DNA of 64,000 bases. It comes from Odontesthes bonariensis (lineage: Eukaryota; Chordata; Actinopteri; Atheriniformes; Atherinopsidae). Of the stretch, positions 31,501-34,500 are shown piece after piece. Below the pieces are notes generated by a model. The model was not told the origin of the DNA, did not search any database, and saw nothing but the letters and a program-made list of their open reading frames with translations. A program made the position numbers and the translations under genes. The stretch spans positions 20,668,227 to 20,732,226 of the forward strand of contig NC_134515.1 in NCBI RefSeq assembly GCF_027942865.1, in the 5' to 3' direction. How positions within the stretch are numbered: the first letter of the stretch is position 1; each line of letters begins with the position of its first letter.

Positions 31501-34500
31501 CTCTTGCCTGCATTCTAATGATGATCTAAATACTTTCAGTCCAGGGGACACATTCTGGGACCCTCGTCTTTGACATTCATTTCTCGGCAGAGACACATTG
31601 TGAGCACAGCTTCAAAGCTCCGGATCTGTCTCGTCAGTCGAAGGAGTTGCATTTTAACTGGCCTTGACCCAAACAAGCTCCTTTACAGCTGGCTCAGTGT
31701 ATACACAGCAGGAGGAGGCCAAGCATGGAAGCTCCTATAACCTAAAGTGACATTTGAATCCGAAGCTAAGAAAGTTGGCTACATTTTAAAAGCACAGTGT
31801 TGTGAATGTTTACATGGCTTCCAGATGAGTAAGCTAAAGGTTTCACTGAACTAAATCACTGGAACCCTTAAATGAAAAAGAAGAAAATAACACCATTTCA
31901 ATCAGTGAGTTACCTGAAAGCCTGGAATAGGTAAGCTTTCTCTCACTTTTTTTTTGTTGCTGTAAATTAAACTTGTGAAAGTCATCATATCGTAAAATGC
32001 TTTCAGCTTTCCAACGCTATGCTGCTTGTGCAACCACTTACAGCATTCGTGTACCCAGCTAAGTGGTGCAGATAACAGCTGACGGGGAGTCTTTGGAATT
32101 ACAACGGTTAAAAGCTTGAGTGTGAACGTCAGAGGTGAGCTCACACTGAGCTCCACACAAATCATTTATTTAAGGCTAACTTTTTCTTCTTCATATCCCA
32201 TCTGTTACAGCCTAACAAAACACTTGAAACTAATTCCTCAATAATTGTGACTCAGGCGAATGTGAAACACGTTCATGTCTGAATAATCATTTCAATAAGA
32301 TTTTGAATGTAACTGAGTAACTGAGACTCAATCACAAATAGTCACTCAGGAACCATGGGTGGACGCACTATAATGCCGGGGTGGGGGGGCACGGCACACA
32401 AATACTTGGTGTTGTCTACTTGTTATCCGATCACTCAGGACGCATGTTAGCGACAGGTCTGAACAGGGCCTACAACAGAACCGCTGTATACAGTAGATGT
32501 TTGAACAACCAGACAGAGAAGCAGATACCAGAGCATCTGCTTTCATGATGAAATAATGAGCTACGTCAGAGTTGGGCTAGATGCAGAACAAACAACTGCT
32601 AGCAGTCAGTGAGCTGGTGTACCTTCAGTTTAGACTGAATCTCACGAGACTTTCTCTTGGCCAAGACTTGCAGGTGACTAGAGACCTGAAGAAAAACAGG
32701 ATGAAGGAAAAAAAAGACGGGAGGAAAAGGGAGAAGAAAAGAAGAGGGAATGTGACTAAAGAGGAAAGGGGAGAGCCGATTACGGTGGGACCCACCTTGA
32801 TGCTTGCCTGATATTCTCGCACCCTTTTACGTGCCAAAACTTGAATGTGACTAGACACCTGTGGGCCCAGGGTTATACCATGAAAACACACACTCACAGG
32901 AGGACTTTTACAATTCAAACATCCATGATGCACTAAAAAATAAATAAATCACTTGTAAGGTAAACATATGAGAAGGTACAAGGTACTAGGACAGACATCA
33001 GCATGGTAATCTTCAGTCGTATCTGTGCATACCTGCTTGCGTGTGCGAGTCTTCCCCGTTCGTAGCTTTATATAGCGAGCTATCAGCTCATTTCGACCTG
33101 TAATGAAAAAAAAAAAAAAAAAAAGGGATAAAATCTCTGAGCACATTTGGAAAGAAAACTAAACAAACAAACGAAAAAAAATACTTTGTTTCTCTACACA
33201 CTCCATATCTATAGAAAACACGAATGAGGCCTACTTATTTTACCGTAGTTACTAAAATATTAGTGAAATTACTTAAAAACAGAGGATTCAAATTTACTAA
33301 ATTCAAAAGTTTAAACTCAAAAGTAAATATGAAGTCAATATTTTCTACTCCCTGAATGCATCTCTAAAAAGAAGCCAGCAAAACGAGCAAGTCTATTGTG
33401 ACTGCGCTATTTGTGAGAGATGTTTTTTTTTTTGTTGTTGTCGTTTCTTTTTTGAGTGAGGCTCTAATAGATCTATCCCATCACTAATCGCATAATTAAA
33501 ATAACTTTCCAGCTTTCCATTTCTGTGGCTGAAAGAAATGCCCAATAAAAGACAGCCTCTCTAAATGCTGGAATGGCTTGCTTGCAAAGCTCCAAAACAG
33601 ATGGATAAATGGTATGTTATGAATAGAGGAAGAAGGAAAAAGGGAGGAGAGATCATCACATTGTTACCAGACTTTCAAAATGTGGTCATTTGCAGACCGC
33701 CTGCTGAGCTCTGCCTTTCTCTGCCTCCCCAGCTACAACCCGTACCCGATGATCTGCTCGTGTCTGATCAGAAATGGCGGCCGCCACACTACTCTGTGCA
33801 GGGAGGTTAAGATGTAGCCGACCAAACTCAACCCATAGGTGTTGTCGCTGATCACTTAAATGAACTAACATCATCACCCTCCATCTTTCTGGGAAATGAC
33901 ACGACACAGTAAGGACGTCAAATGAGTCACATCAGCTCCGTTAAGTTACCAGAACACAGAATTCCCCAAAATCAACAGAATGGGCTGACTCAGACACGGC
34001 AGTCTGCTCCAATTCCCAAAACAGGACACACACACACACACACACACTCCACTGCCGCCTACCACCAGTCCAAGAAGCCAAATGCTTTTCCTTTAGACAG
34101 AGTATATTTAGGTCTCTATTACAACACTGAAAGGAGGTGGACACAAAATCTATTCCATCTCCAAACATTTATAGTTGGACACCACATGGATTTGGGCTAT
34201 AGTTGATTTGGGCAAGTAAGAGGCAAGTATGGAGGACAACGTACAGCCCTAAAAAAATACAAAACAAAACTAATGACTGCGTAGTTTGACCAAAACTGGA
34301 CTTTTAAAATGCATGTAAACATGTTAGTCTGACTGAAATCATACAAAATAGATCAACACACCCAGAAAATGCAGCTGGGGTCACATCACTGCTGCATAGT
34401 GCTGGGCGGTATACCGGTTCACACCAAATACCGGTTTATAATTTCGTTATGATATGAATTTTTAATATACCGCCATACCGGTGTATTTGATTACACAACG

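Follow-up and report, generated by a model that had tools for sequence, protein, structure and literature searches.

Two tandem exons could offer alternative ends of the TEA domain

Among the exons of tead3, a gene encoded on the minus strand of the 64-kb window (the whole stretch of DNA that we analysed), are two homologous neighbours, 3a and 3b. They probably stem from a tandem duplication and are probably used one at a time as alternative 21-residue ends of the TEA domain. We put the probability of this reading at roughly 0.7. The choice of exon could give the protein either a TEAD3-like form or one that resembles its sister proteins. The Hippo pathway ends at the TEADs, which bind the DNA, and comparisons of the paralogues usually treat each as a gene of its own. 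If the reading is right, nature would have set up a domain swap within one gene, in which the end of the DNA-binding domain changes from one paralogue type to another, and the swap would reveal the role of the TEAD3-specific residues. It would also link splicing to the phospho-control of TEAD DNA binding, and the exon pair would bear on the divergence of the TEAD paralogues.

We located the exons of the gene by tblastn with a working human TEAD3 sequence and by reading the sequence. The features used below are the following:

37397..37638, minus strand: coding exon for the N-terminal half of the TEA domain (tblastn with the working TEAD3 sequence; borders set by eye)
33033..33097, minus strand: exon for the middle of the TEA domain, phase 1-0, upstream of 3a and 3b (tblastn and reading)
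32796..32858, minus strand: exon 3a, TEAD3-type end of the TEA domain (sequence reading and peptide comparison)
32686..32795, minus strand: intervening intron of 110 nt between 3a and 3b (sequence reading)
32623..32685, minus strand: exon 3b, TEAD1/2/4-type end of the TEA domain (sequence reading and peptide comparison)
28650..28661, minus strand: AMNL microexon of 12 nt, the next exon found after 3b (reading; identical to the AMNL of human TEAD3)
25519..28260, minus strand: exons of the linker and of the YAP-binding domain, the last with the stop codon near 25519 (tblastn, reading and Pfam YBD)

Together, the located exons cover residues 1-147 and 175-435 of the working human TEAD3 sequence. 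The piece matching residues 175-200 is weak (E = 0.08, tblastn with that query), and tblastn located no linker counterpart of residues 148-174 in the window. The gene encodes both a TEA domain (PF01285, 100.6 bits when joined with 3a) and a YAP-binding domain (PF17725, E = 1.1e-63 for the joined YBD exons). It has the TEAD3-type VREYQ...IK of exon 3a and the AMNL microexon, by comparison with the working human sequence. Its other located coding exons are intact besides 3a and 3b, and the exon at 33097-33033 (minus strand) reads ...TRTRKQ at its 3' end, in phase 0.

The sequence-only reading had described two tead3 exons downstream of this point, and its description of them holds: each has 63 nt, phase 0-0 and AG/GT borders, they lie 110 nt apart, both are free of stops and their products share 12 of 21 residues. 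Exon 3a is preceded by ...GGGCCCACAG and followed by GTGGGT, exon 3b is preceded by ...TTTTTCTTCAG and followed by GTACAC, and at the DNA level 40 of the 63 bases are identical. In this the two show a mark of tandemly duplicated, mutually exclusive exons, which are related neighbours that match in length and phase and keep their AG/GT borders.

We compared the two products with peptides of the TEAD paralogues, of which that of TEAD4 was taken from PDB 5gzb, while those of TEAD2, TEAD3 and most residues of TEAD1 are working sequences. The 21-residue TEAD4 peptide matches 3b at 17 positions and 3a at 15. For the working TEAD2 peptide the counts are 19/21 and 14/21, and for that of TEAD1 16/21 and 12/21 (restricting TEAD1 to the 15 residues present in PDB, 12 match 3b and 11 match 3a). 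The working TEAD3 peptide shows the reverse, with 18/21 for 3a and 13/21 for 3b. Exon 3b is therefore nearer to the TEAD2 and TEAD4 peptides than to its own neighbour. The label of TEAD1/2/4 type, given to 3b in the sequence-only reading, is correct in general; the exception is exon position 13, which is alanine in TEAD4 and serine in 3b, TEAD1 (PDB) and TEAD2 (working sequence), 3a having a valine. Joined with 3b, the TEA domain scores 100.1 bits against PF01285, next to the 100.6 bits with 3a, but these scores say little on the part that differs because the Pfam model stops at about exon position 9-10.

Residues changed by the exon swap

The two exons differ at exon positions 5, 10-13, 16 and 18-20. 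Residues 1-9 read VSSH(I/L)QVLA in both, position 5 being the only difference among them. It had been suggested from the letters that the gene makes proteins with two DNA-binding surfaces. This is overstated, as VSSH(I/L)QVLA is common to both forms and the changes lie at 10-13, 16 and 18-20. Helix 3 of the TEA domain contacts the major groove (PMC5876656). The chains of PDB 5nnx and 5no6 end at exon position 15, and hence within these constructs 3a and 3b differ at positions 5 and 10-13 only. In Scalloped, the bipartite nuclear localization signal (NLS) spans the exon junction and 14 residues of this exon (PMC3121794). The differences at positions 10-13, 16 and 18-20 fall at the end of the helix, in the C-terminal cluster of the bipartite NLS and at a possible phosphosite. 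This C-terminal cluster has four basic residues at five positions in both exons (RKRVR in 3a, KRKSR in 3b), so nuclear import is probably retained with either of them.

In 3b the serine stands in the context KRKS, while 3a has no serine at exon position 13, which we take to be the position of Ser102 of TEAD1, a PKA site. To judge by its title, a study by Gupta in 2000 reportedly found that PKA phosphorylation enhances gene activation. Phosphorylation by PKA and PKC disrupts the DNA binding of TEADs according to a review (PMC6628201). Given the KRKS of 3b and the lack of this serine in 3a, exon choice is a plausible switch of phospho-control. It is more likely to tune affinity, phospho-control or import than the choice of motif.

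Splice signals and the intervening intron

The tract before 3b is free of AG for 68 nt and consists of 93% pyrimidines. Among 8,227 AG-to-AG intervals on both strands of the window, it is the only one of at least 68 nt with at least 92% pyrimidine and a final pyrimidine, under a threshold that was chosen after seeing this very tract. The acceptor of 3b is the richest in pyrimidine of nine tead3 acceptors measured: the other eight range from 51 to 89%, the second-richest having 89% over a tract of 35 nt. Three tead3 exons have acceptors outside this set of nine: the first TEA exon, the first YBD exon and the linker exon near 27878. AG-free length alone is not special in this gene, since three of the other eight acceptors have longer AG-free tracts (71, 89 and 104 nt, with 66-74% pyrimidine).

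Mutually exclusive exons of the steric class are separated by a short intron with a long pyrimidine tract that lacks AG. In OGDH, exclusive splicing is enforced by such a tract together with distant branch points, which lie 25-41 nt from the upstream donor in human and 46 nt in ocean sunfish, the steric limit being around 50 nt (PMC7969005). Such proximity of branch point and donor is predicted for 57 of 629 clusters of human exclusive exons (9%; PMC5740500). In the 110-nt intron of tead3, the adenines usable as branch points are at +10, +15, +16, +39, +43, +45 and +94 from the 3a donor. The candidate at +43 (TAGTCACA) scores 3 of 4 on the yUnAy scale, as do those at +16 and +39. Its rival at +94 (CCTTCATC), 16 nt before 3b, matches yUnAy perfectly (4/4). 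If the site at +43 or an earlier one is used, the branch point sits closer to the 3a donor than the steric limit of about 50 nt; if the one at +94 is used, there is no steric constraint and exclusion by proximity fails. The intron could be of the kind in which the branch point enforces exclusion.

The two exons also differ in how their splice signals are distributed. Exon 3a has a poor acceptor tract (59% pyrimidine in 32 nt) and a good donor, whereas 3b combines its excellent tract with a weak donor. With an approximate matrix, the donors score 5.73 for 3a and 0.34 for 3b; of the 3,890 GT sites on the strand, 0.3% score at least as high as the former and 8.6% at least as high as the latter. 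With these tracts and donors, 3a and 3b look like a balanced pair. RNA pairing between the exons was looked for as inverted repeats of at least 12 nt, and none was reported in 32400-33150.

Mutually exclusive use and its rivals

The sequence-only reading had proposed mutually exclusive exons. Its structural part is borne out, as 3a and 3b appear to be two intact alternative exons of one tead3 gene; for its functional part, exclusive use is the most likely reading because the exons are homologous and match in length and phase, a protein with both would carry the helix twice, and the anatomy of the intron may fit. An old tandem duplication would have given rise to 3a and 3b, with one copy included at a time. 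Including both keeps the frame, as each exon has 63 nt, so that only the splicing mechanism could enforce exclusion. Paired with a branch point near the 3a donor, the long pyrimidine tract before 3b would block the joining of 3a to 3b, and trans-acting factors would balance one exon against the other by tissue or stage. Both proteins would retain the N-terminal part of helix 3 and the bipartite NLS, and for this reason their MCAT-type target sites would probably be the same. With 3b, the protein would gain a serine in a basic context, at the position of the PKA site of TEAD1, and lose TEAD3-specific residues. Exon choice would then mainly alter affinity, the phospho-control of DNA binding and/or import.

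Inclusion of both exons in the same transcript, so that the end of the helix occurs twice in the TEA domain, is the least credible of the alternatives. It would keep the frame (63 + 63 nt), the intron is spliceable through the candidate branch point at +94, and Pfam still scores the protein with 3a and 3b in a row, at 106.9 bits (PF01285). Yet such a protein would repeat VSSHxQVLA and its domain would be 21 residues longer, and the intron anatomy may resemble that of known exclusive pairs. We also regard it as very unlikely that 3b is a cassette or an alternative terminal exon whose weak donor is left unspliced, which would yield a protein with the TEA domain only, devoid of the YAP-binding domain and possibly dominant negative. 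The weak donor (0.34) speaks for this, read-through past the donor adds only seven residues (VHQLTDC) before a stop, and an AATAAA lies 453 nt downstream. However, AATAAA or ATTAAA occurs 1.4 times per kb on this strand, so a signal within 453 nt is not unusual, and a terminal exon has no need for a length of exactly 63 nt, an end in phase 0 and an intact GT.

The weak donor could also mark 3b as a decaying relic of an old duplication that is no longer spliced in, and we know of no such exon in mammalian TEAD3, which would agree with loss. We nevertheless consider this improbable, although a little less so than a terminal exon, because the protein sequence of 3b is conserved despite synonymous divergence and its acceptor has the richest pyrimidine tract of the nine measured. 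Five of the 12 residues common to 3a and 3b are encoded by different codons, and four of the five shared fourfold sites differ. This argues against a fresh duplication, even if five sites are too few for a substitution rate. We simulated neutral evolution starting from 3b, with 5,000 runs per length, and counted the runs with at most four amino-acid changes and no stop. Their share was 24% for a length of 0.15 substitutions per site, 8% for 0.2 and 0.9% for 0.3, and no greater beyond 0.3. This argues against decay only if 3b has long been in place, as a recent copy from a paralogue would escape the test.

Searched with the TEAD4 peptide of 5gzb, the 64-kb window returned 3b at E = 2.6e-8 and 3a at 8.3e-7, the next best match having E = 2.6. 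We rejected a chance origin of 3b on the strength of this gap. There was no third copy of the exon elsewhere in the window among the tblastn matches. A repeat search reported two A-rich two-copy families only; it missed even the 3a/3b pair and is thus a weak test. Pattern searches for relatives in collections of viral and prokaryote contigs gave 9 and 56 matches, respectively, none of which was confirmed.

Origin of the pair

Either the duplication would predate the divergence between the TEAD3 type and the TEAD1/2/4 type, or 3b would later have been copied from a paralogue. The sequence-only reading had suggested that the pair may be ancestral. This is plausible because 3b resembles the paralogues more than it resembles 3a, but copying from a paralogue fits as well. 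Gene conversion by the exon of another tead gene, which is compatible with exclusive splicing, nonetheless seems unlikely to us. It would explain why the TEAD2 and TEAD4 peptides resemble 3b more than 3a does, and it agrees with the intronic flanks of 3a and 3b, which are identical in register at 22/60 and 18/60 positions, where mononucleotide shuffles give 16.8 (sd 2.9) and 16.6 (sd 3.3). These flanks thus show no clear similarity of the kind that would be a sign of recent duplication. However, the same pattern of resemblance is expected if the duplication predates the divergence of TEAD3, and tandem duplication would account for the matching phase and for the distance of a single short intron. 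Of the 14 residues of the exon that overlap the published NLS of Scalloped, 11 match 3a and 11 match 3b by eye (PMC3121794), so the comparison does not favour 3b as the older type.

More tentatively, and with odds that we place below even, an ancestral vertebrate pair of TEAD exons may survive here. One tead3 gene would then make two kinds of TEA domain, TEAD3-type and TEAD1/2-type, with a serine controlled by splicing and a PKA-type control of DNA binding in one isoform only, the other vertebrate TEADs having kept one version each.

Comparison with known systems

The 3a/3b pair most likely joins the known tandemly duplicated, mutually exclusive exons, in this case within a Hippo-pathway transcription factor. 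The sequence-only reading knew of no description of it, and our literature search likewise found none among the matches listed. In chicken, Azakie reportedly found in 1996 that the TEAD3 isoforms DTEF-1A and DTEF-1B are splice variants with different C-terminal ends of the TEA domain, and the two are said to have 433 and 432 residues. They would resemble the 3a and 3b forms in being TEAD3 isoforms that differ at this end, but with 433 versus 432 residues they would not be a simple swap of two 63-nt exons. TEAD4-S is a further splice variant that affects the DNA-binding region of a TEAD: skipping of exon 3 removes the DNA-binding domain (Qi et al. 2016; PMC5867882, PMC7140685), whereas tead3 would replace one version of it by another. 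TEAD is not mentioned in the main text of a survey of human exclusive exons (PMC5740500) or of a survey of tandem exons.

Outside the TEAD family, exons 4a and 4b of OGDH share with 3a and 3b the tandem duplication and an intron with a long pyrimidine tract and a long AG-exclusion zone. In OGDH the branch point or points lie less than about 50 nt from the donor of the first exon and have been mapped in several species, whereas that of tead3 is predicted and has a rival near site; and the swap alters the Ca2+ site of an enzyme in OGDH but lies in a DNA-binding domain in tead3 (PMC7969005). Exons alpha1 and alpha2 of MEF2C, which 3a and 3b would resemble in being exclusive, likewise belong to a muscle-related transcription factor. 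There, the choice separates a ubiquitous from a muscle-specific isoform, while the tead3 swap lies in the TEA DNA-binding domain (PMC7140685). In full-length transcript sequencing of Japanese flounder, a tead3 is reported to be heavily alternatively spliced and had the largest difference between two groups in alternative-splicing events (27 versus 52), the text of that report giving the events without resolving the exons (PMC9230003). The transcript annotation of fish tead3 could already contain both the 3a and the 3b forms.

Other features of tead3 and its neighbours

The AMNL microexon (28650-28661, minus strand) lies nearly 4 kb from 3b and has a strong donor, with a score of 5.03. Its inclusion could be combined with either 3a or 3b. 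The first TEA exon of tead3 reads ...VIIASEWSC... and offers no ATG in frame ahead of the TEA domain. A non-AUG start is a feature of mammalian TEAD genes. The ATT of ATT GCG TCG, at 37613-37611 on the minus strand, could be such a start; alternatively, the start may lie in an upstream exon.

Other coding features were also seen on the minus strand of the window. Armadillo-repeat pieces, plakophilin-like by eye, lie at 7826-10979, where Pfam Arm was found in two of the three pieces tried; the third candidate piece (10983-11339) had no Pfam match. An ETS-domain exon at 60759-61100 (Pfam Ets, E = 3.6e-27) is of the SPI1/SPIB type by eye. At 58021-59092, a rhodopsin-family GPCR occupies two reading frames, apparently two exons, with Pfam 7tm_1 in both, and by eye it is perhaps adenosine-receptor-like.
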